Virus record (IMG/VR): IMGVR_UViG_3300032157_000040
Coordinates: 1-27,331 of that record
Strand: one strand, 5' to 3'
Origin: a virus
Length of the DNA stretch: 27,331 nt
This document shows, piece by piece, positions 779-25,954 of this stretch. The notes beneath the pieces were generated by a model. The model was not told the origin of the DNA. It was given only the letters and a program-made list of their open reading frames with translations, and searched no databases. A program made the translations under genes and the position numbers. Within the stretch, counting starts at the first letter, position 1; each line of letters opens with the position of its first letter.

Positions 779-2218
779 TTATTTCTTCATTTTGAGCATT
801 GAACGCAAGGCTGCTGCGCCTTCAAGTGTTTCTGTTTTCTTAACCTTAGTCATAGATGTAATTTCACCTATACTCGGATCTATCTTTTCATTTGACTTAA
901 CAACACTTCGTTTCTTCAACTGATCATAAATATTTTTAGTTGTGGTTGTTACTGCACTTTCATCACCTTCTTCGAGGTCAGAAATTCTTAAACTCTTATT
1001 ATTGAATGCTAAATCTACCTTAGAACCTACACCTGCACTGGAACGTGTCTTAATAAATTGAATTTGATAACGACCACTTTCCTTCATTGATGCACTTGTA
1101 AAAATACCAATGACATTATCTGCTGTATTAACTTTAGAAATACCACCTGCAATATGACTAGGATCATATTCAATCTCTTCATAAGATCCACGATTTAATT
1201 GTGAAGCTGAAATTGTTACCGTATCAAGTTCAACTGATAAATTACGCAATTCTTCTGTGACATATTTGTCCTTAACAAATAAGTTTTCCATTGAAATTTT
1301 TGTACTCATTGGATTCATCAAATCTAAATAATCAACTAAAATACAATCAACCTTAATTTTTTTATGTATTTCATACTCTTTAACAAATGCACGAATATCA
1401 TTAGCAGTACATCCATTCTTTAATTGTTTAATTTGAATTGAACCTTTATGTTGCTGCTGCGTCTTTTTAAGCCTTAAATGAACATCATCAATATTCCGCA
1501 TCACTTCACGTGTCTCATATCCAGTGTGCATTGCATCAATACGCATAGCACAAAGCTTCTCACTGAGTTCCAATGATAGATAAACAACATTTAATCCTGC
1601 CAATGCCCAATTCACTGCAAGATTTTGTAAAAATAGAGATTTACCTGCTCCAGATTGTCCTGCAAAAATAGTAATCTCTCCACGGTTTACACCACCATAG
1701 AGTTTATCGTCTACTATTTTCCAGCCCGTGGATATCTGCCCTTTACCTGCCCGAATAGCTTCAAGTCTAGACTTCGGATCATAGTAATAATCTGTTCCGA
1801 GGTCTTTAACAAGGGCAATCTGTACCGCCGCTTTGATAGTTGCTTCAACTTCGCCATATCTTCCTTCATCTAATAAAGTGGGAGAGGCCAGAATTGCATC
1901 ACGCAATGCCTTATGCCTACAAAACTTTTCAAACTCTCTTAAAAACCAATCTTCATTTAAAGAAGCCGCAACTTCCATGAGTTCAACTTCTTTTTTAGTT
2001 GTGGCTTTTATTACCTGTAGTGGCGGGATTAATGAAAAATCTGTACTATATCCTTCAATAAAGGCTACCGCATCTCTATTTTGTGTATTTTCAAAATATT
2101 TAGATTTCAAAATACCTTTACAACGCACAAATAAGTCTGGTTTGCTTACCATAAAATTGATAAACAAGTCTTCAACTTCTTTATCATAAACATCAATTCC
2201 GCTTTCGTTTTCTTTCAT
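779..2218 (-). CDS. 41: Replicative DNA helicase, DnaB/gp41-like
   Basis: RecA-fold hexameric replicative helicase that unwinds DNA ahead of the phage polymerase and works with the gp61-type primase. Numbered from the longest frame, the Walker A motif GQSGAGKS lies at residues 190-197 and the Walker B strand ILVDYLDL at about 296-303. A helical N-terminal domain fills residues 1-150, and the C-terminal RecA core is followed by a basic tail. The overall length (about 480 aa) fits T4 gp41. The longest frame opens at a TTG at 2227; I prefer the in-frame ATG at 2218 because GGGA is better placed for it. The gene starts inside the end of the primase gene (about 26 bases overlap), so the primase and helicase are coupled, as expected for a primosome pair. 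Confidence 0.95.
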   Translation of the reverse strand: MKENESGIDVYDKEVEDLFINFMVSKPDLFVRCKGILKSKYFENTQNRDAVAFIEGYSTDFSLIPPLQVIKATTKKEVELMEVAASLNEDWFLREFEKFCRHKALRDAILASPTLLDEGRYGEVEATIKAAVQIALVKDLGTDYYYDPKSRLEAIRAGKGQISTGWKIVDDKLYGGVNRGEITIFAGQSGAGKSLFLQNLAVNWALAGLNVVYLSLELSEKLCAMRIDAMHTGYETREVMRNIDDVHLRLKKTQQQHKGSIQIKQLKNGCTANDIRAFVKEYEIHKKIKVDCILVDYLDLMNPMSTKISMENLFVKDKYVTEELRNLSVELDTVTISASQLNRGSYEEIEYDPSHIAGGISKVNTADNVIGIFTSASMKESGRYQIQFIKTRSSAGVGSKVDLAFNNKSLRISDLEEGDESAVTTTTKNIYDQLKKRSVVKSNEKIDPSIGEITSMTKVKKTETLEGAAALRSMLKMKK

Positions 2219-3248
2219 TTTGTTCAATGTCCCATGTTATTTTTATCTTTTCCTTTCCAGACACTGCGGTAGAAATAATAGAATGTGTAGTTAATAACCT
2301 TCCATAGATTTCCGATGCTTGAGCCGCATCTTTTATATTTTGTCCCCATTTTGGAAATGCCACAGCCCAATTATTTTCAATTGCTACCTTAACTAAATCC
2401 CATCCTTTCTTATCTCTATCAGGACATACAATTACCTGTTTCTGAAGACGATTAATAATATCTACCTTTGCCTGTCCAATCTCACCTAATGTACTTATGC
2501 CATCAACGCACCATGCATCGAGGACACCCTCATTGAGGAGAACATATTTACGTGACCAATCTGAATAATGATCAAGATTATAGACAAAGTCTAATGGGCA
2601 TTGTTGAAGATATTTTGGTATGCTCTTATCAACTGGATCATAACATAAGCGTGAAGTAAATCCTACAATATTTCGTTTATAATAATAAGGAATAATTAGG
2701 CGTTGATTTAAATTATTAAATGTTTCGGGAGACCAATAGAATTGATCTAAATCAAAAATACGTCTTTTTAACGCATAATCTACAACTTTACGAAAATTTG
2801 GATCTGTTAATCCATGTTCAAGCCATTCAGTTATCTTTAGTGAATCTTTCGGTAATTCGACAGGTTTCCACAGTTGAAATAAAGATTTGAGCCTACTTTC
2901 TCTATCTATTTTATCGCCATCTCTTACTTGAATAATATTATTTCTATTTCTAAATATTTCAAAATCAAGTTGTTTAATGAAATCTTCACCAACATTTATT
3001 TGTTTTAAGAAAAATTTCATTCCTTTAGATAAATCTTTACCTTCTGTATAACCAGCAGAAAATCCACAATTGAAGCAATTTATTGCTATAGATTGTGGAT
3101 TATATTGAATTCCGAAACGATTACGTGTATCTTTTCCGTGCCCACGTGTATGGCATAACATGCAGTTTCGCTTATTCCACCCTTTTGGGGCCTGTTTTAG
3201 TGGGCCAATGTTTTGCTGAATTGCGTCGCGAAGAATTTCTAAAATCAT
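2193..3248 (-). CDS. 61: DNA primase, gp61-like (zinc finger plus Toprim)
   Basis: Synthesises RNA primers for lagging-strand replication, acting with the gp41-like helicase. The N-terminal zinc-binding domain shows C29-x2-C32 and C58-x2-C61, with His residues at 33 and 37 between them. The Toprim core shows the conserved Glu in LLNEGVLDAW (E240) and the Asp-x-Asp in CPDRDKKG (D277/D279). The 351-aa length is typical for T4 gp61. The ATG at 3248 has no Shine-Dalgarno; a sigma70-like promoter ends 6 bases before it, so the transcript may be leaderless. It overlaps the downstream helicase start. Confidence 0.93.
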   Translation of the reverse strand: MILEILRDAIQQNIGPLKQAPKGWNKRNCMLCHTRGHGKDTRNRFGIQYNPQSIAINCFNCGFSAGYTEGKDLSKGMKFFLKQINVGEDFIKQLDFEIFRNRNNIIQVRDGDKIDRESRLKSLFQLWKPVELPKDSLKITEWLEHGLTDPNFRKVVDYALKRRIFDLDQFYWSPETFNNLNQRLIIPYYYKRNIVGFTSRLCYDPVDKSIPKYLQQCPLDFVYNLDHYSDWSRKYVLLNEGVLDAWCVDGISTLGEIGQAKVDIINRLQKQVIVCPDRDKKGWDLVKVAIENNWAVAFPKWGQNIKDAAQASEIYGRLLTTHSIISTAVSGKEKIKITWDIEQNERKRKRN

Positions 3249-4817: not shown

Positions 4818-5420
4818 TTAGCTAGCCCATGGATCAGTAACAACAAGAGTGTCTCCACGCTTCATTACGTTGCTGCTATTCCAGTCTTCCCCACTGTATC
4901 CAATTATAAAATCCAGTTCTGGCCAATGTTCTTCGAGATAATCTGAATTTTCGTCCGAATCAAGATAATCGAATAAGGAATAGCCCCTCTTTGGTTCTAT
5001 ACTGGGGGCTATATACTTCTTAAGTATAGGATCATTCTCTCCGTCAAGCTCTTGTAGTAGTTCCATTCTAATAGCATGACTGTTTTTCCCAATGTTTATG
5101 GGCCTTCCTCGAACCTTTGGCACGTGAGGATTGTTTTGATTTTTACGTATAACTTTTAGAAACTTTTCGTATCCCCGATCATCGACGAATACCTTATAGA
5201 CATAGGGATAGTTAGGATGTTGGAAAATATTAGCAAAATAGCCATCAGTGTTTATCTTCTTCCATCCATGCTGTTCTGCTGTTTTAATGAAATTATTCAT
5301 CGAATCAGTCTCGTACTTATAATCACTAATTTGATTGGTTTCAATCTCCTTGGGTTTCAATTGCGAGGCTGCTCTGTTAAGTGGGTGTGATTTGTATCCA
5401 GTAAGTTCGTTTAGTCGCAT
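4818..5420 (-). CDS. Minimal protein-kinase-like protein A
   Basis: A 200-aa protein whose layout matches a protein-kinase fold. It has a glycine/aromatic loop near GYFANIF (60-66), a candidate ATP-binding Lys in VYKVF (K76) and a hinge-like MELLQEL (119-125). The catalytic-loop-like GEDWNSSNVM has D179 and N184 at the canonical D-x4-N spacing. VVTDPWAS then places the putative metal-binding Asp at D196. The protein stops three residues after that Asp-Pro, so it has no activation loop or C-lobe. The N-terminus MRLNELTG recalls the start of kinase-like protein B. The late-type element directly abuts the ATG, with no Shine-Dalgarno, so the message may be leaderless. Activity and substrate are unknown. 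Confidence 0.75.
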   Translation of the reverse strand: MRLNELTGYKSHPLNRAASQLKPKEIETNQISDYKYETDSMNNFIKTAEQHGWKKINTDGYFANIFQHPNYPYVYKVFVDDRGYEKFLKVIRKNQNNPHVPKVRGRPINIGKNSHAIRMELLQELDGENDPILKKYIAPSIEPKRGYSLFDYLDSDENSDYLEEHWPELDFIIGYSGEDWNSSNVMKRGDTLVVTDPWAS

Positions 5421-5486: not shown

Positions 5487-5858
5487 ATGATAAATCTCGA
5501 AGAAATCAGGGAGAAATTCCCCTTTTTAACCGGTATACGCTTTCAAACGCATGAATATATTGGAATTATACAAAATTCTGACGATAAGATTATCAGCTTT
5601 TATGATTATGAATGTATCCGTACACCTGAAGAAAAAGTAGTTTTTCTCGAGAATGGAGATACCTGGTGGTGGGAAAGCAATAGGTTGCTACCTATTAATA
5701 TCTTTTTACAAGGACAAATGCAACAATTTCGTTATTGCATGAAAACAATTGTAAACAAAGATGTAGAGATTATGTTCGGTTCCTGTACAAGTCTAAACAA
5801 CATTATGAAGAAACGAATTAAGAAACGTCAAATTCAATTAATCAGAAAAGTGCCTTAA
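5487..5858 (+). CDS. Conserved-looking hypothetical phage protein (123 aa)
   Basis: One of only two plus-strand genes. It begins MINLEEIREKFPFL, has a central acidic/aromatic segment with DTWWWESNR (about 58-66) and PINIFLQG, and ends in a strongly basic helix (KKRIKKRQIQLIRK) typical of nucleic-acid or membrane contact. No ribosome site is visible; the late octamer 6 bases upstream implies a leaderless start. I recall similar proteins in T4-type phages, without a known role. Its first residues (NLEEI) are the same as those of the next gene. Function unknown. Confidence 0.75.
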   Translation: MINLEEIREKFPFLTGIRFQTHEYIGIIQNSDDKIISFYDYECIRTPEEKVVFLENGDTWWWESNRLLPINIFLQGQMQQFRYCMKTIVNKDVEIMFGSCTSLNNIMKKRIKKRQIQLIRKVP

Positions 5859-6435: not shown

Positions 6436-7023
6436 CTATTCTTTCGAAAATTTCTCAATTAGCAGATTTAAATTTACCACGATAGCGAGAGCATAGGCTA
6501 TTGCATGACATCGGCGGAATTGATATTCGTCTCCTTTCTTTACCCAAACTTCTTTTCTAATATTATCCCAACTTTGATGCTGTAGATATGCTTTTCCTGG
6601 ACGCATAATTGCAAGGACCATAGCCAAGTCTTCGATTGATTGAGGTTTATATTTTACTAATAAATTGCTGTGTCCCTTTAAATGAAATAATTGATCAGTA
6701 ATTTCCGAATATTGAAAAAAATCCCAAGGTGGTTCTTTTTCTAATAATTCAAGTAAATGCTTTTCAGATTTAACACCTTCATACATATTAACATTCAAAA
6801 AATCAATTTTGAAATATCCATAGTCTCTTGCTTTCTTATAATCCAATGTTGCCATATTGGTTACAGGATCACGAGGAATGTTTTGAAAATATACACCTGT
6901 ATTATGCTTTTCATAACTGCCATCGTCATCACGATCAATCCGTCCTTGGATACATCCAATACCTTTTAAGATATCTTCTCTACCAAATACGTCCATGTCA
7001 ACATCTGTTTCAATTCTTTTCAT
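6436..7023 (-). CDS. Miniature DnaE-like (C-family DNA polymerase) palm protein
   Basis: A 195-aa protein that reads like a condensed bacterial DnaE/PolC palm. The N-terminal ETDVDMDVFGREDIL (5-19) matches the P-D-x-D-x-D-F motif that carries two catalytic aspartates. YFKIDFLNV (about 71-79) matches the motif with the third aspartate. FFQYSEITDQLF, then the stretch around KPQSIEDLAMVLAIMRPGK, matches the FQ-x-ES and L-x-RPGP region. FRRCHAIAYALAIV matches the F-x-KSH-x-x-AYA segment. All PHP, fingers and C-terminal OB-fold parts are absent, compared with more than 1,000 residues in real DnaE. It is the last gene of the gp32 operon, overlapping the preceding gene by 14 bases. Activity is unproven; it could be a replisome accessory factor. 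Confidence 0.7.
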   Translation of the reverse strand: MKRIETDVDMDVFGREDILKGIGCIQGRIDRDDDGSYEKHNTGVYFQNIPRDPVTNMATLDYKKARDYGYFKIDFLNVNMYEGVKSEKHLLELLEKEPPWDFFQYSEITDQLFHLKGHSNLLVKYKPQSIEDLAMVLAIMRPGKAYLQHQSWDNIRKEVWVKKGDEYQFRRCHAIAYALAIVVNLNLLIEKFSKE

Positions 7024-7246
7024 TTTTATATATTATTAATGGTATATACGGACAATAAAAATATCCTACAGCCTCAATTACATAGGGTTCAAATTTTAAT
7101 TTAAATGCTGTTGCATCTTCCTCATTATCAAAGGTTAACATATTTGTTCCCCATTTAAAGGAGATTACATCTAATAAATTATTATCTACAAGCCATTCGC
7201 TAATAATTTCTAATTTATTATGTGGTACTTTAAATGAAATTTCCAT
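7010..7246 (-). CDS. Small hypothetical protein (78 aa)
   Basis: A 78-aa protein with alternating strand and helix segments. It begins MEISFKVPHNKLEIISEW and continues through MLTFDNEEDATAFKLKFE to a hydrophobic, tyrosine-rich end, suggesting a ferredoxin-like alpha/beta fold. It starts at TAATG overlapping the zinc-finger gene's stop and runs 14 bases into the DnaE-like gene, so it is translationally coupled on both sides. Family not recognised; it might be a partner of the DnaE-like protein. Confidence 0.7.
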   Translation of the reverse strand: MEISFKVPHNKLEIISEWLVDNNLLDVISFKWGTNMLTFDNEEDATAFKLKFEPYVIEAVGYFYCPYIPLIIYKNEKN

Positions 7247-7926
7247 TATAATCCGGCTTGCTCTAATAAATTCTTAATATATTCGACATCATCAGTTTCT
7301 TTCTTGAACTTACGCATCCAAAATCCCGGATCAATCACATTCTTAATCATTGGATCATGATCTTCTGTAAATCTACCCTGAAGATCTTCTGCTGATTTAG
7401 ATAGATATAATACCCATGGACTAATTCTACCAGTCTTTATAAGGTATGCTGCTTCATTTGCAGAGATATTAATAAAGAATTGATTAAATGTTACGTTATT
7501 CTTTTCACACCATTCAATAATTACTGATATTGTTCTATCAGTTGCACTAACTGGTGGTTCTGTTTTTACTAAATTTTCAATATACAATTCATAGACTGAA
7601 TCAATTTTCCATTTTTCAATCTTTAATCCACTCTTAATAACAAAATCAATATATTGTTCTAAATGGACTGGCCTTAATAAACCTACATGATTGCCAAAAT
7701 TTACAAATTCAGTATAATATTGACTATCTATAAATTCATCTTGTGTTTTTATTTTCTTTGAATTAGTATGATATGCAAAATATTTCTGAAATGTTCTAAA
7801 GCCATAACGAAATCCTTCAGTATTAATATCAAGATAGCGTTGCTTCTTAAGACATATATGAGTGGCTAGTGTGGTTTCCTTATGGAACTTTTTTCCGCAA
7901 TATTTACAATCGAATTTTTGTTCCAT
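7246..7926 (-). CDS. Zinc-finger protein of the replication operon (226 aa)
   Basis: The N-terminus carries a C2H2/C2HC-type finger: CKYC at residues 7-10, then H23 and C25 after a KKFHKETTLATH linker. A mostly helical domain follows, with FGNHVG, WKIDSVYELYIENL and GRISPWVLY segments. The longest frame opens at a TTG at 7944, but I prefer the ATG at 7926, which places the finger directly at the N-terminus. Comparable proteins occur, to my memory, in many T4-type phages beside replication genes, annotated only as zinc-finger proteins. It probably binds nucleic acid or a replisome subunit; this is inference from the finger and the neighbours. Confidence 0.75.
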   Translation of the reverse strand: MEQKFDCKYCGKKFHKETTLATHICLKKQRYLDINTEGFRYGFRTFQKYFAYHTNSKKIKTQDEFIDSQYYTEFVNFGNHVGLLRPVHLEQYIDFVIKSGLKIEKWKIDSVYELYIENLVKTEPPVSATDRTISVIIEWCEKNNVTFNQFFINISANEAAYLIKTGRISPWVLYLSKSAEDLQGRFTEDHDPMIKNVIDPGFWMRKFKKETDDVEYIKNLLEQAGL

Positions 7927-7946
7927 TTTTTTCTGTACCAACAAGA

Positions 7947-8986: not shown

Positions 8987-9760
8987 TTATGCTTTATCCA
9001 TTAAATCAAGTCTCACAATATCATCTTCAGATAATATTGAACCGATTTGTGTTTCGACGAAAACGAGATCCGTATCGCCAGTATTTGTAATCTTGTGAAG
9101 TGTTGCAACATCAATCGCATAGATCGATCCTTTCTTGCAACTAAATCCATAATTATCAATTGCTACAATTCCTGTACCAGAGATAATATACCAACCTTCA
9201 CTTCTATGATTGTGATATTGGAGGCTTATAGCCTGTTTCGGTTTAATTGTAACTTCTTTTACAAGATAACCTTCGCCTCTATGTAAAATCTTGTAAAATC
9301 CCCAATTCTTGTTTGTTATGTCATTTTTCCAATTATCAAAATACCAAGAACTTGAATATCTTTTATCTGTTCCGCCAATACCAAATCTTAAAATAACGTC
9401 GCATTCCTTTGCTACTTTTTCTTCAGGTATATTTTCAATGGTTCTATCACCACCATTCATAAAGTATATTGTGCTTTTCGGATAAAAAGCTCTAGTTTGG
9501 CGTATTGCTTCATTAGCTGTATCATCAGCATCATCTTTAGGTGAAAGGGCATGAACTTGTGAAATATATTTTATACCTCTCAGTATTTCCGTTCTATCGT
9601 ATTGTGGCATAAAAGCCTTACCTTTTTTACGAATTAGCCATTCATCAGAATTCACAAAAACAATTACATCATCCACCCATCTGGAGGATTCTCTGAAATA
9701 TTTAATATGACCGGGTGTTATAGGATCAAATCCACCTGTTAAAATTGCAATTCGATGCAT
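8987..9760 (-). CDS. Nucleotidyltransferase-cupin fusion protein
   Basis: A two-domain protein. Residues 1-145 form a cytidylyltransferase-type Rossmann domain, with GGFDPITPGH (9-18, the T/H-x-G-H nucleotide-binding motif in its T form) and an SSSWYF segment corresponding to the family's I-S-x-x-x-I motif. Residues 165-257 form a cupin like that of type II mannose-phosphate isomerase/ManC: LQYHNHRSEGWYIISGTG, then IYAIDVATLHKITNTGD, ending SEDDIVRLD. The expected roles are activation of a sugar or polyol phosphate with a nucleotide, plus a sugar-isomerase/epimerase-like step. The target could be a glycan or modified DNA; the sequence does not say. The start overlaps the previous stop (TAATG). 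Confidence 0.85.
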   Translation of the reverse strand: MHRIAILTGGFDPITPGHIKYFRESSRWVDDVIVFVNSDEWLIRKKGKAFMPQYDRTEILRGIKYISQVHALSPKDDADDTANEAIRQTRAFYPKSTIYFMNGGDRTIENIPEEKVAKECDVILRFGIGGTDKRYSSSWYFDNWKNDITNKNWGFYKILHRGEGYLVKEVTIKPKQAISLQYHNHRSEGWYIISGTGIVAIDNYGFSCKKGSIYAIDVATLHKITNTGDTDLVFVETQIGSILSEDDIVRLDLMDKA

Positions 9761-10140
9761 TATGATTCACCATAAAATTCTTGTATTTTTCCTGATTTTA
9801 CTATTTTCTCGAGAACTGCTACAAAATCTTCATTCTGTTTAGCTTCTTTTTCTTCTTGTAATTGTCTATGGTATGATTTTGGTTGAAGAGCATCTAGTGC
9901 AACTCCACATTTTAGAAGATAATCATCTAACATATTAAGAACACCACAATGCCTTACACCCATAAATGTTAGTGCTATGGAGGTAGGTTCATATGTTGTT
10001 TCTAAATGAATAACCATATGGTGCCTTCCCCTAACTTCCATTGTGGCTTGTTTTATATTCACACCCACTAGTTCATTTGCCTTAAAGAAAATCTTGATTA
10101 ATTCAAGATGTGCTATATCTAATCTTGTCTCAATTATCAT
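9760..10140 (-). CDS. Small hypothetical protein downstream of uvsW (126 aa)
   Basis: A 126-aa alpha/beta protein: an N-terminal helix-strand region, MVIHLETTY (about 42-50), GVRHCGVLNMLDDYLLKCGV (61-80), then a charged coiled-coil-like C-terminus. Its start lies inside the last codons of uvsW (about 11 bases overlap) and its stop overlaps the next start (TAATG). No family is recognised. The tight coupling to uvsW suggests a helicase-associated or repair role only by context. Confidence 0.75.
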   Translation of the reverse strand: MIIETRLDIAHLELIKIFFKANELVGVNIKQATMEVRGRHHMVIHLETTYEPTSIALTFMGVRHCGVLNMLDDYLLKCGVALDALQPKSYHRQLQEEKEAKQNEDFVAVLEKIVKSGKIQEFYGES

Positions 10141-11629
10141 GATAATTTACCTTTGAAATAGTATATGGATATTGCGCCTCTGTATAAAATTTCTTTCTCT
10201 TTGCTAAATGCCTTTTAGAGAACTTACAATTCGAACAAACATCATAAACGTTCACAAAATCTTTATCAGGAGCAACTCTAATACCTCTACCAATACTTTG
10301 AATAACCCTTACAAAACTTTTACCTGCTTCAAAAAGCACCAGGTTAAAAATACGAACGATATTAATGCCCGTAGATGCTACACCATAGGTAGCAATAATA
10401 ACCTTCCCATCGACTTCTTGAACTTCTTTATATTCATCCTTACGTTTCTTTGATTTCATTTTACCGGAAACAAAAACTGAATTTGGAATCAATGCTTGTA
10501 ACTTCTCACCAGTCTCAATGCGATCAACTAATATCAGGGTATTTCCACTCTCAGATATTTCAACAACCTGTTTAGCCAAATACTTTAAGCGTGTTGGATT
10601 AGTAGTTAGCCATTTTAATTCGGATTGATAATCATCAAACTTATCACCACGCAAAGTAGCGGCTATTTGATCTACAGGATCCTGATCTACCAATTGCCAA
10701 ACATTAACATGTAATTGTGCAAGAAGACCTTTATCTTGTAATTCTTTAGTCTCAATTCTACCGAGCATCGGGCCAATACAAGCCATAACAGAAACTTTTT
10801 CATGCTCCTCTTCAGGCATTGTTCCTGTAAGCCCCCATCTAACCGGAGCATTTTTCAAATAGCTCGACAATAAACGTCTCAATACATCTGCCTTGGCTTT
10901 GTGTACTTCGTCCACTATAACGCAAACCACGCCTTCGAAGAAATCGTTGATATCGATTTCTAAATCTATTTCTTTTGAACGCTTTGCTAGGCTTTCCAGA
11001 CTTTGCCATGTACAGATTGTGTGAGTTTTCAAATACTCTTTTCTATCACCGAAGAATACACCCACATCTAATCCCAAATTTTTATAATCATCTTCGGTTT
11101 GTGTTACTAAATCCTTGGTCGGCACAATTACGATGCTACGACCATAGGGTTCAACTTTATGACTAAGAATCGCCGTTACCAACGTTTTTCCCGAGCCTGT
11201 AGGGGCAATATTTACACCTGTGAGATTATTGAGATAAGAGTTAATTACTTCAACTTGGTGATCTTGTAAAACGATTGGATCACCAACAAATTGATGACCA
11301 ACTGGCCATTGGATATGAGAATAACTATCTTCGACTACCTCATCAAACACAAAGTCATGTGAAGTATCTCTAAGATCTTCAATTTCAACTTCATACCCTT
11401 GTTCTTGAACAACAGGTAAGAGTTTATCTAATAGATTAAGATATGACCTGCCGCCTATATCACAAAAATTCAACATACCATCCCAGCGACCAAGTTTATA
11501 GGCTGGAGTATGTCTAGCATATTCGAGAAAATATTGAACTGAATTAACAAGTTTTCTTCTTGTTACTATATCAAGACCTTCAAATTTAACGTTTACTTCG
11601 TCTTGTATTATTAATTTTGTTGTTATCAT
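10130..11629 (-). CDS. uvsW: UvsW-like recombination helicase (SF2)
   Basis: ATP-dependent DNA helicase of superfamily 2 that in T4 unwinds branched DNA, drives branch migration and reverses stalled forks. It shows Walker A APTGSGKT (about residues 142-149), the motif II box DEVH in VIVDEVHKA (about 240), motif III-like LTGTMPE and motif VI QSIGRGIR. An N-terminal domain of about 110 residues precedes the helicase core, as in UvsW. The longest frame has an upstream TTG at 11635; the ATG at 11629 forms an ATGA overlap with the preceding stop and is preferred. The length of 499 aa matches T4 UvsW closely. Confidence 0.93.
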   Translation of the reverse strand: MITTKLIIQDEVNVKFEGLDIVTRRKLVNSVQYFLEYARHTPAYKLGRWDGMLNFCDIGGRSYLNLLDKLLPVVQEQGYEVEIEDLRDTSHDFVFDEVVEDSYSHIQWPVGHQFVGDPIVLQDHQVEVINSYLNNLTGVNIAPTGSGKTLVTAILSHKVEPYGRSIVIVPTKDLVTQTEDDYKNLGLDVGVFFGDRKEYLKTHTICTWQSLESLAKRSKEIDLEIDINDFFEGVVCVIVDEVHKAKADVLRRLLSSYLKNAPVRWGLTGTMPEEEHEKVSVMACIGPMLGRIETKELQDKGLLAQLHVNVWQLVDQDPVDQIAATLRGDKFDDYQSELKWLTTNPTRLKYLAKQVVEISESGNTLILVDRIETGEKLQALIPNSVFVSGKMKSKKRKDEYKEVQEVDGKVIIATYGVASTGINIVRIFNLVLFEAGKSFVRVIQSIGRGIRVAPDKDFVNVYDVCSNCKFSKRHLAKRKKFYTEAQYPYTISKVNYHDN

Positions 11630-11880
11630 TCGCAAAGATTTCGGTGTTTGTGTTTTAATATATAATCTTCATCAACCTCTACAGGAAATTCATAAGGCAT
11701 ATATTTTATCATATATGAATATTCCTTTTTGTTACCATGATAGATTACTTCCTTTATTATGCCACATTTAGTTTCGGCATTAATTGGAAGTTCTGTCAGA
11801 ATACCATTTATTGTTGCCAAAAATGTTTGTCCAATAACTCCCTTCATTTCAATTACTTGATTTACCACAAACGGATTCAT
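11626..11880 (-). CDS. Small hypothetical protein between uvsY and uvsW (84 aa)
   Basis: An 84-aa beta-rich protein (MNPFVVNQVIEMKGVIGQTF, then CGIIKEVIYH and EYSYMIKYMP) with an SH3-like strand pattern and a basic C-terminus. AAGGAA lies before the ATG. It ends in an ATGA overlap with uvsW. No family is recognised. Its position in the recombination operon suggests a DNA- or protein-binding accessory. Confidence 0.7.
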   Translation of the reverse strand: MNPFVVNQVIEMKGVIGQTFLATINGILTELPINAETKCGIIKEVIYHGNKKEYSYMIKYMPYEFPVEVDEDYILKHKHRNLCE

Positions 11881-11889
11881 ATTAATTCC

Positions 11890-12351
11890 TTAAATACTTG
11901 CATCATCTAATCCTGCGACCCTGAGTTTTATGATATGGCCAGTCATAAAGTTTTTCGCTTCAAAACCTTTAACAATTCCTAGAAATTTATTTCTTAATAA
12001 GGCAACTTCATTAACCAATAATGTTAAATCAACAATAGACTGAACACCATCTATATATTTTTCTGCGTCGCGAGAACTTAATGTTTTATTATAGGCTTCA
12101 AGAAATCTTTTAAATTCTGCTGATCTCTTTTTTCGAAGATCAATATTTAGGTATTCGAGAACAGCTTCAATTTCTTGTAACTGAGAAAATCTTTGTTCTA
12201 CCAAACCAGGAAGTTCTGCCGCGTGCTTCTCTAATGATTTACCTTTAAGTGATAATTCTTTCCGTGCATTATCTAGTTCACCTTCAAAATAAACTATGAA
12301 TGCAGAAATATTTGATAGATCTGCGGTAATTCTGTAATACCAGATCGACAT
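11890..12351 (-). CDS. uvsY: UvsY-like recombination mediator
   Basis: UvsY loads UvsX recombinase onto gp32-coated single-stranded DNA. The 153-aa protein is almost wholly helical, with a coiled-coil-like first half (YFEGELDNARKELSLKGKSL, 22-41). A conserved second half follows, with AYNKTLSSRDAEKYIDG (about 88-104) and ending in a FLGIVKGFEAKNFMTGHIIK-type segment. That second half resembles the S-R-x-L-S-D-R-x-x-D-K-Y-I-D and R-G-x-A-x-x-N-I-x-x-I-R-V patterns of UvsY from T4-type marine phages. Placement between uvsX and uvsW fits. The ATG overlaps the DUF4326 stop (TAATG). Confidence 0.75.
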   Translation of the reverse strand: MSIWYYRITADLSNISAFIVYFEGELDNARKELSLKGKSLEKHAAELPGLVEQRFSQLQEIEAVLEYLNIDLRKKRSAEFKRFLEAYNKTLSSRDAEKYIDGVQSIVDLTLLVNEVALLRNKFLGIVKGFEAKNFMTGHIIKLRVAGLDDASI

Positions 12352-12599
12352 TATTCATTCGCAATTCGTGATAAGACATCACCATGACAAGATAATGGTG
12401 CACAGAAACAAACAAGGTCTTTACCCCTGAGTTCTTGTTTAGCTGCTTCCATAAGTTTAGGATTTAACATCAAATATTCTTCAAATTTTCGAACCACATC
12501 TTCGCGAGTACCATCGGGCCCAATAACAAACGGGTTTCCCCATTTGCTTGGACGACCGATATACACCCCTTTTGAGGATTTTCTTTTATTTAATACCAT
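12351..12599 (-). CDS. DUF4326 family protein
   Basis: An 82-aa protein with the two family signatures: GVYIGRPSKWGNPFVIGPDG near the N-terminus and KDLVCFCAPLSCHGDVL near the C-terminus. The Cys and His of CFCAPLSCHG are probable functional residues. The longest frame begins at a GTG at 12626, but the family begins close to the ATG at 12599 and that start is preferred. This gives a 14-base overlap with the preceding gene. The function of DUF4326 is not established as far as I know. Its presence between uvsX and uvsY is only context for a nucleotide or DNA-related role. Confidence 0.88.
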   Translation of the reverse strand: MVLNKRKSSKGVYIGRPSKWGNPFVIGPDGTREDVVRKFEEYLMLNPKLMEAAKQELRGKDLVCFCAPLSCHGDVLSRIANE

Positions 12600-12900
12600 C
12601 GAGACTATGTACTCTTCTAATTGCACCTTCCATTGCTTGTACTAACAACACTGCTTTTTGAGTTCTGGATCTTAATACTCTCTTAATTGCTAGAGCTCTC
12701 GGAGGGACACTTAGGTCTTCTGCCAAGGCCTGATGTACCCTGGTCAAATTGACTGGCTCTGAAATCCACATCACGTAGTCGACACCCACAGTCACATCTC
12801 TCATTTTCTCTTTGAACTGCTGGACTTGCGTATAGGATTTCAAGGCATCCTTGCTCTTAATTGTTTCGAGTAATAATTCTCCTGATTCATTAGCGGTCAT
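12586..12900 (-). CDS. Small hypothetical protein (104 aa)
   Basis: The longest frame begins at 12933, but a GAGG six bases before the ATG at 12900 supports the shorter form, which begins MTANESGELLLETIKSK. The protein is helical and basic in its second half (PPRALAIKRVLRSRTQKAVL), which could contact DNA. It overlaps genes on both sides by 10-15 bases. No family is recognised. Confidence 0.7.
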   Translation of the reverse strand: MTANESGELLLETIKSKDALKSYTQVQQFKEKMRDVTVGVDYVMWISEPVNLTRVHQALAEDLSVPPRALAIKRVLRSRTQKAVLLVQAMEGAIRRVHSLDGIK

Positions 12901-22107: not shown

Positions 22108-22548
22108 TTAACCCTTCCCTTTTGGGTTATTGAAAATATTATTCTCAGTCATTACTCTAAATCCCATGCCACGATTTTTTGCAAACTCTTGTGCCGCCTG
22201 CCATTTGAACGTATTCAATGCGACCGCTGCCTTAGCCTTTTGACTTTTTGCCTGTTCTAGGAATGTCTCTTTGGCTGGCTTTACTTCAATAATCTCTGCT
22301 ATTTGATTACCTTTAGCATCCACATAAGTAACAACAAAATCCGGGACATACACAGTGTATTTACCGGTGAATGGATTTGTGTAGGGTATCTTAATGGATT
22401 CACTTGCCCAGGTTTTTATATTTGGATTATTATCAAATAACAACATTACCTTATGTTCCCAAGATGACCTGAAAACAATAGGATATGTACCAACATACTT
22501 TTCCGGGTGTTCCGGAGTATATTTTCCTTGAAAATATGATCTAGACAT
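22108..22548 (-). CDS. 4: Head-completion nuclease gp4-like
   Basis: In T4 this protein trims or seals packaged DNA at the head vertex before tail joining. The N-terminus MSRSYFQGKYTPEHPEKYVG and the RSSWEHKVM segment are very close to T4 gp4 in pattern. The PD-(D/E)xK-type nuclease residues are E31 in SSWEHK, D70 in YVPDF, and E88/K90 in IIEVKP. The length of 146 aa matches T4 gp4 (about 150). It is coupled to the kinase-like gene by TAATG. The C-terminus is NNPKGKG. Confidence 0.93.
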   Translation of the reverse strand: MSRSYFQGKYTPEHPEKYVGTYPIVFRSSWEHKVMLLFDNNPNIKTWASESIKIPYTNPFTGKYTVYVPDFVVTYVDAKGNQIAEIIEVKPAKETFLEQAKSQKAKAAVALNTFKWQAAQEFAKNRGMGFRVMTENNIFNNPKGKG

Positions 22549-23186
22549 TATGCTATTGGGTCTGATAATACCAATTGAGGTATGCCTCCTACTTTCCGAA
22601 ACATAATATTATCTTCTTTACCAGCTATATCAAGGCCAAATCCTACAGATCTTTTTTGAGCACTATGAATTATCTTTAATGCTTGAGCAAATTGTTTATC
22701 TTTAATGTTTCCAGGATTTTTTTCGTATGCATCAGTTATTAAAGCATCTATTGATGGATTTTTTATTTTTCCTAGCGTCTGATAATTATGAAACATATAA
22801 GATTTAAGATGTTCAATTGTTTCAGGATCAACGCTTGACATAGGATGCAAATGTTCAAGAACCGCATAATAAAAATTCATATTATTATCTTTTACGGATT
22901 TAAATTTAATAATTTTTGGAAAATAAGGATTTTTGTATCCTCTCTTTTCTAATGCCTGAATAATTTTAACAAATACAACATACGGATCATCACTGAAATC
23001 ATTTAACATAGCCTGGTGAGGAATTTTTATTACTTCACCTTCCCTTTTTGCGGCTTGTCCTTTTCGAACCATGGCATAACCACCATCACCAATATTTGAT
23101 CCTACTTTCTGTAATTTTGCTAATTTTCTTGAGCCGGGATCTAACCGTGGATCATCCTCATTTACAAATAATTCAAATAATCTCAT
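22548..23186 (-). CDS. Minimal protein-kinase-like protein B
   Basis: A 212-aa protein with a kinase N-lobe-like pattern: glycine-rich loop IGDGGYAMV (32-40), Lys in VIKIP (K54) and hinge-like AVLEHL (108-113). The catalytic segment GLDIAGKEDNIMF has D186 and N193, two residues longer than the canonical D-x4-N. QLVLSDPIA holds the metal-binding Asp candidate D209 and ends the protein, with no activation loop or C-lobe. The N-terminus MRLFELFVNE resembles a capsid-targeting peptide. It is embedded in the late virion operon and coupled on both sides (ATGA and TAATG), so it is made late, with head and tail proteins. Together with protein A it suggests a paralogous pair. Substrate unknown. Confidence 0.75.
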   Translation of the reverse strand: MRLFELFVNEDDPRLDPGSRKLAKLQKVGSNIGDGGYAMVRKGQAAKREGEVIKIPHQAMLNDFSDDPYVVFVKIIQALEKRGYKNPYFPKIIKFKSVKDNNMNFYYAVLEHLHPMSSVDPETIEHLKSYMFHNYQTLGKIKNPSIDALITDAYEKNPGNIKDKQFAQALKIIHSAQKRSVGFGLDIAGKEDNIMFRKVGGIPQLVLSDPIA

Positions 23187-24902: not shown

Positions 24903-25047
24903 TATTATTATTTTCATTCTGTTTTCTGATATATGCCTCATCGGTTAATTTCTTCAATAACTCAACCGCTGAAATTCCTTCTTTTAGCAATTTAATCTTC
25001 TCTTCCTCTGATAACTCTTTTTTCAATTCATTTATTTGTTTGTTCAT
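24898..25047 (-). CDS. Short helical ORF downstream of the homing endonuclease (49 aa)
   Basis: An ATG at 25047, inside the end of the endonuclease gene, opens a 49-aa frame: MNKQINELKKELSEEEKIKL, then LKEGISAVELLKKLTDEAYI and a short polar end. It is charged and likely coiled-coil. It fills an otherwise empty 140-base gap and overlaps the endonuclease gene by 20 bases. No family recognised. Confidence 0.6.
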   Translation of the reverse strand: MNKQINELKKELSEEEKIKLLKEGISAVELLKKLTDEAYIRKQNENNNR

Positions 25048-25954
25048 CTATATTTTCCTTTAATAAATTTCCATCTTTGTCAAAAATCATAAATTGAAAA
25101 TTATAGCCGGCATCAATACAGGCTTGACGCTTGAGGAGATTGATATTATACCAACCGATAAATCCATCATATGTATATTTTGATTTTACCTCAATAATAA
25201 GATTTTTCTTTGGTATATAAATGTCCGGATAATATCTATGCTTTTTATTGTTTTCTAAATAAAATATAGGTAAAATATCAGGATTTACACATATCTCATC
25301 CTCTACAAATTTTTCTAATAATAAATTTAAACATTTGTCTTCGTATCCCTGCAATTTTATTGTTTTTCCAGATGGCAATAAATAATTCTTTTTCTTGTAA
25401 TATCTATTTCTATCAAATGTATTCTTAAAATGCATAACATTTGTTACGCCGTATTTTTCTAAATTAGTTTCTACTTTTTTATCTTGAGTAATTTTTAATT
25501 TGGATGAATGTTCGACACCATATTTTTCTAAATTGGTATTTTTAGTCTTCTGTTTGAAACTATCTAATCTCTGTGGTTTCTCTATACCATATTTTTCTAA
25601 ACATGTTTGTTTAGATTTATTTTCAAATTCTTCAAGAAGTTGAGGTTTATCAGTTCCGTGTCTTTCTACATTAGTATCTTTAATTTTCTCTCTAAATTCT
25701 TCAAGATCCATAGCATTAGTAATTCCTTCACCATACTTTTCGGTAAATGAATTTTTAATTTTATCTTTTATTTCTTTAGATTTTGATGGATTAGAAACAC
25801 CATATCTTAATAAAGAAGTCTGTTTTACCTTATCGGCAACTCCTATACGTTGGCAGGAAATAGAACAATACTTTTTGTATTGTCCATCCTTCCTGCGTAT
25901 TTCTGTCACTATCGTTTTACAACTTTTATTATTACATTTTTGACCATTTGCCAT
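25028..25954 (-). CDS. Free-standing homing endonuclease, zinc finger, six repeats and PD-(D/E)xK nuclease
   Basis: The N-terminus has a C7-x4-C12 and C30-x3-C34 zinc-binding pattern. Residues about 40-180 contain six degenerate helical repeats of 23-27 aa built on K-x-T-x-L-E-K-Y-G-V-x-x-P, similar to DNA-recognition repeats in phage intergenic nucleases. The C-terminal domain has a PD-(D/E)xK core: YYPDIYIP (P243/D244), then LIIEVKSK (E255, K257). The 308-aa protein is A/T- and Lys-rich compared with the virion genes around it. It lies between the tail tube gene and a baseplate-like gene, has its own sigma70 promoter and a strong AAAGGAG ribosome site, and is therefore likely a mobile element expressed early. 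Confidence 0.88.
   Translation of the reverse strand: MANGQKCNNKSCKTIVTEIRRKDGQYKKYCSISCQRIGVADKVKQTSLLRYGVSNPSKSKEIKDKIKNSFTEKYGEGITNAMDLEEFREKIKDTNVERHGTDKPQLLEEFENKSKQTCLEKYGIEKPQRLDSFKQKTKNTNLEKYGVEHSSKLKITQDKKVETNLEKYGVTNVMHFKNTFDRNRYYKKKNYLLPSGKTIKLQGYEDKCLNLLLEKFVEDEICVNPDILPIFYLENNKKHRYYPDIYIPKKNLIIEVKSKYTYDGFIGWYNINLLKRQACIDAGYNFQFMIFDKDGNLLKENIDEQTNK

Follow-up and report, generated by a model that had tools for sequence, protein, structure and literature searches.

A gene in the replication cluster of a T4-related phage, which encodes 195 amino acids and carries the active-site motifs of the bacterial C-family polymerase DnaE, raises the question of what so small a relative of a replicative polymerase does in a group of phages that also possess a B-family DNA polymerase. 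The gene lies in a 27,331-nucleotide genome fragment, referred to here as the window. We conclude that its product is the C-terminal portion (C half) of a minimal C-family polymerase that group 2.2 jumbo phages encode in two pieces, and a new member of the split-polymerase family predicted in 2021. We assign a probability of about 0.78 to the reading that two proteins together make up a minimal C-family DNA polymerase with a low-processivity accessory role, of which this one is the C-terminal subunit.

Gene neighbourhood

Along the window lie the genes for a helicase and a primase, followed by a few insertions, two plus-strand genes, the C-half gene, a gene for a C2H2-like protein, two conserved genes, a nucleotidyltransferase-cupin gene, the genes for UvsW, UvsY, UvsX and a gp32-like SSB, and finally the terminase and virion genes. 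The features closest to the present question are as follows.

779..2227, minus strand: DnaB-like replicative helicase, T4 gp41-like, in the replication cluster
2193..3248, minus strand: T4 gp61-like DNA primase, part of this replication cluster
5487..5858, plus strand: conserved convergent gene, phrog_11637, located 3' of the C-half gene
6436..7023, minus strand: C half of the split DnaE-like (minimal C-family) DNA polymerase, 195 amino acids, PHROG 11778, with D7, D9 and D74 corresponding to E. coli DnaE D401, D403 and D555 by motif alignment
7010..7246, minus strand: open reading frame of 78 amino acids with no convincing family, sharing its last 14 bases with the start of the C-half gene
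7246..7944, minus strand: conserved gene for a C2H2-like protein, phrog_11058, placed just ahead of the C half in relatives
10130..11635, minus strand: UvsW-like helicase, at the opposite end of the conserved cluster, its order kept in relatives

The order uvsW, C2H2-like gene, C half, convergent gene, primase and helicase is also found in RaK2, 121Q, PAC2 and others. Pseudomonas phage PAC2 has a gene annotated as 'C2H2-type domain-containing' at the place equivalent to that of the phrog_11058 gene, and a convergent gene of similar size occupies the phrog_11637 position in RaK2, 121Q, PAC2 and Atu_ph07. The 78-residue reading frame at 7010..7246 is probably co-transcribed with the C half.

Several other genes of the window are of separate interest. 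A cytidylyltransferase-like domain (PF01467) is fused to a mannose-6-phosphate-isomerase-type cupin (PF01050) in the gene at 8987-9760 (minus strand), which sits between conserved genes of the replication cluster. A DUF4326 protein (12351-12626, minus strand; PF14216, E=7e-26) adjoins UvsY in the recombination gene cluster, and a free-standing homing-endonuclease-like gene (25028-25954, minus strand; phrog_3339, Pfam DUF7487) is inserted among the virion genes. Two further minus-strand genes look kinase-like by eye: the one at 4818-5420 weakly matches the phage protein kinase family phrog_15752 (3e-8) and the one at 22548-23186 has no Pfam match.

Part of a C-family palm in 195 residues

The C-half gene (7023..6436) is a complete open reading frame with an ATG start, while the plus strand of the same interval is riddled with stops. 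DnaE active-site motifs had been reported in the initial annotation in the order of the bacterial enzyme, and all of them were located in the protein, as D7-V-D-M-D11, K72IDFL, F103QYSE, M140RPGK and C172HAIAYA, together with H40NTG; among 200,000 shuffled versions of the protein, a regular expression for the motif series found no match. PHROG 11778, annotated as 'DNA polymerase', gives a full-length profile match to residues 3-191 (E=1.4e-64), and the profile of full-length DnaE/PolC proteins, phrog_405, matches residues 56-146 (E=2e-5). The match to the Pfam Pol3 finger family (Pol III finger domain; 3.5e-4) falls slightly short of the curated cut-off. Sequence comparison with individual polymerases gave weak support, since a single-sequence phmmer search of the PDB reached DnaE at E=0.17 only and hhalign of the C half against one E. 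coli DnaE returned low probabilities of 34% and 19%. The assignment to the C family was therefore decided by comparison of folds.

An AlphaFold model of the C half built with 63 sequences has a mean pLDDT of 93 and a pTM of 0.77. When this model was compared with known structures using VIA-align, all 15 entries with Z scores above 4 were C-family polymerases, which ranged from 6.6 to 10.1, whereas the best unrelated entry scored 3.7. The highest scores were obtained for Taq Pol III alpha (3e0d, Z 10.1 over 192 residues, rmsd 3.4) and PolC (3f2b, 9.7), followed by E. coli DnaE (2hnh, 8.9; 4jom, 8.7). Residues 2-195 align to residues 458-841 of the Taq, 397-784 of the E. coli and 967-1299 of the PolC enzyme. 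Foldseek likewise placed C-family polymerases on top, with modest E-values (best 2.1e-3). No other fold thus ranks above DnaE, so that the refutation named in the initial annotation did not occur, and the proposal of a condensed DnaE relative in the replication cluster of a T4-related phage is borne out by the fold match.

Catalytic residues and missing domains

Aligned to P400-D401-F-D403-V-D405 of E. coli DnaE, D7 corresponds to D401, D9 to D403 and D11 to D405; further equivalents are K72 (K553), D74 (D555) and H173 (H760). These equivalences rest on the motif alignment together with the aligned ranges. The offset of the Taq range places D7 and D9 on residues 463 and 465, the catalytic residues of Taq Pol III alpha, while the ends of the E. 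coli range suggest a slip of one residue at the less confident N-terminus of the C half. Judged from the alignment, D7, D9 and D74 are the expected catalytic aspartates. Three catalytic aspartates are hence present, as the initial annotation had proposed, but the metal-binding pair would be D7 and D9, complemented by D74, and not D9 and D11. All of these residues belong to a set (D7, D9, D11, H40, K72, D74, R141, P142, K144 and H173) that is identical in 109/109 distinct aligned C halves. The fold match and the invariance of D7, D9 and D74 show the C half to contain the C-family palm fold with its three catalytic aspartates.

Much of the remaining enzyme is absent. Only 63 residues separate D9 from K72, compared with 150 in E. 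coli, indicating that the thumb is gone, and K144 and H173 are 29 residues apart, compared with about 118 in E. coli, indicating that the fingers are cut down. None of the PHP, thumb, clamp- and tau-binding domains is found in the 195-residue protein, which leaves no room beyond the match to E. coli 397-784. A conserved C-terminal clamp-binding motif was not seen in C halves either, their tails varying between lineages. In addition, the Gly-Ser nucleotide-binding motif is missing from the open reading frame and is carried by a separate protein in relatives. The initial statement that everything else of DnaE is missing hence holds for the 195-residue reading frame and fails for the genomes of relatives, in which the remaining part of the palm is a separate gene.

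This bears on the suggestion that the protein could be a minimal polymerase by itself, functioning alone as a palm. All three catalytic aspartates and the finger residues are present and the protein has a good predicted fold on its own; however, it lacks the GS-motif part that is found in every solved C-family polymerase, and relatives supply that part as a second, co-occurring protein, which carries this motif in invariant form. We consider a stand-alone polymerase highly improbable and favour a C half that acts with this second protein.

The partner protein and the split point

A search of relatives with PF07733, the N-terminal Pol III alpha domain, revealed a second small gene in six of nine records, the three records without a match being fragments of less than 140 kb. 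The encoded protein (N half) corresponds to PHROG 11127, has about 171 amino acids and contains an invariant GRGS nucleotide-binding motif, of which R140, G141 and S142 are identical in 98/98 N halves. With its own profile, the N half was found in all 17 C-half-bearing records tested. The window, a genome fragment, contains no match to it, and the N half of the source phage is expected to be encoded outside these 27 kb. In the AlphaFold model of the N half (pLDDT 90.8), residues 78-171 align to E. coli 278-393 with Z scores of 7.7-12.2, and only C-family polymerases match above Z 3.2; the first ~77 residues have no assigned fold match.

Since the N-half match runs up to residue 393 of E. coli DnaE and that of the C half sets in at about 397, the two halves abut and the cut lies just ahead of the catalytic PDFDVDF motif. 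All 116 phage N-half reading frames stop 0-4 residues from this point. A fusion of both halves in one reading frame was sought and rejected, with no case among 148 C-half and 116 phage N-half reading frames. In the phages examined, a distance of tens to hundreds of kilobases separates the genes of the two halves. Some recent records name both halves 'DnaE-like DNA polymerase III alpha'. In two lineages (Atu_ph07 and the relative at locus L065) the N half adjoins an RFC/gp44-like clamp loader. In a relative (locus L066, 1764-2510, plus strand), a GIY-YIG/NUMOD3 homing endonuclease reading frame abuts the 3' end of the N-half gene and opens with a near-copy of the C-terminal IGVHRVNS peptide of the N half.

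The initial annotation also offered a decoy competing for the host clamp or helicase. In a broader form of this reading, the C half would be a decoy or regulator, a DnaE fragment devoid of catalysis that vies with host DnaE for the clamp, the helicase or other partners. It is indeed a small piece of a host replication enzyme, and no functional study or report of activity for the family was found in the literature searched, many subscription papers and preprints lying outside the search. However, the catalytic residues are all invariant over distant lineages, the C half is constantly paired with the N half (17/17), and the PHP, clamp- and tau-binding regions, which would be the most natural contacts of a decoy in the host, are absent. 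A decoy function is thus disfavoured and, in our view, very unlikely.

Distribution and replication context

Homologues of the C half were detected by tblastn in 63 phage records, 60 of which cover at least 80% of the query; the proteins are about 190-210 amino acids long, and the matches listed come from relatives of RaK2, 121Q, GAP32, PA5oct/Paride, Atu_ph07, SCTP-2 and XacN1. The protein studied here is at most 51% identical to those of the aligned named phages among RaK2, 121Q, GAP32, PA5oct and Atu_ph07. A profile-based scan of viral contigs yielded at least 586 confirmed relatives. Plasmids gave no match. When 84,980 bacterial and archaeal genomes were scanned by pattern, four relatives turned up, each of them in a metagenome-assembled genome and probably on a phage contig. 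A cellular origin is disfavoured by these counts, and, given its occurrence in phage records and viral contigs, the family looks phage-restricted.

A B-family polymerase is encoded by 16 of the 17 relatives tested for the N half, the exception being a 134-kb fragment, so that the initial description of a T4-type phage with a B-family polymerase besides the DnaE-like protein holds for these relatives; none was seen in the 27-kb window, itself a genome fragment. A DnaQ-like exonuclease is present in 14 of 16 relatives. Profiles for gp45-type (PF02916) and PCNA-type (PF00705) sliding clamps matched nothing in 16 relatives, although some relatives possess RFC/gp44-like clamp loader genes. The sliding clamp of these relatives may be very diverged or missing.

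A two-protein polymerase and its possible role

Based on homology, the split point, co-occurrence, residue conservation and predicted folds, we infer complex formation, polymerase activity and a biological role for the N and C halves. The N half would provide the beginning of the palm and, with its GRGS loop, hold the triphosphate of the incoming nucleotide. The C half would bind the metals through its three aspartates and touch nucleotide and template through its shortened fingers (RPxK, HxxxY), and docking of the two halves would rebuild one palm. The lack of PHP, thumb, clamp- and tau-binding parts suggests weak processivity and hence a short-patch or otherwise limited role beside the B-family replicase, such as gap filling, repair, or lagging-strand or one-strand synthesis. 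The DnaQ-like exonuclease of many such phages perhaps works together with the split polymerase. As the thumb is missing, stable binding of the primer-template is uncertain. The separation of the two genes by up to hundreds of kilobases, the modest Foldseek E-values and the lack of any reported activity in the papers found also weigh against the two-protein reading. We see an even chance that the split palm reassembles into an active polymerase that is template-directed, lacks a thumb and totals about 366 residues, which would be the smallest of the C family and would have a dedicated job beside the B-family replicase.

The missing thumb and reduced fingers also lend themselves to another interpretation, in which the two halves together make a nucleotidyltransferase other than a template-directed polymerase, acting, for instance, in end-tailing or in protein or RNA modification. 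The C-family palm has a pol-beta/nucleotidyltransferase fold (PMC7824862), many members of which are non-polymerases. In contrast, the finger motifs RPxK and HxxxY show little or no variation, and the genes sit in replication clusters. We regard this function as unlikely and retain the two-protein polymerase as the preferred reading.

With the split point precisely located, invariant residues identified in both halves and the two always paired, the system lends itself to a clean test by reconstitution. An active pair would represent the smallest C-family catalytic core and would explain why these phages keep a second polymerase.

Comparison with known systems

The split reading was published independently by Iyer et al. 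in 2021 (PMC7824862), who described the Pol III alpha of group 2.2 jumbo phages as a 'phage-specific minimal version', split at distant genes into an N-terminal NTP-binding protein and a C-terminal protein that binds Mg and the template. According to these authors, it coexists with a B-family polymerase and possibly cooperates with it in one strand or in repair, and such forms resemble an ancestral Pol III rather than reduced copies (PMC7824862), a suggestion on which activity of the pair would bear. In other reports, the N half of phage CBB was noted as a truncated Pol III alpha and Pol III subunits were listed for Atu_ph07. The present analysis extends this description by locating the split at residue level, testing the pairing, counting invariant residues, supporting both halves by their folds and correcting the catalytic residues.

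The protein studied here belongs to the same family as the split Pol III alpha of RaK2, 121Q, GAP32, PA5oct and Atu_ph07 (PHROG 11778 and PHROG 11127) and shares its length, motifs and neighbourhood; the two differ only at the level of sequence, the window being too short to show its own N half. With bacterial DnaE/PolC it shares the palm and part of the fingers, including equivalents of D401, D403, D555, K553, HxxG, RPG and HxxxY. In contrast to the bacterial enzymes, the phage form is split ahead of the catalytic DxD, lacks the PHP, thumb, clamp-binding, OB and tau-binding regions, and has 63 instead of 150 residues between the second and third catalytic regions. The PHP-containing Pol III alpha of group 3.2 jumbo phages (phage G type) is likewise a C-family phage polymerase; however, it is full-length and bacteria-like (PMC7824862), whereas the present one represents the split form that appears to be restricted to phages.
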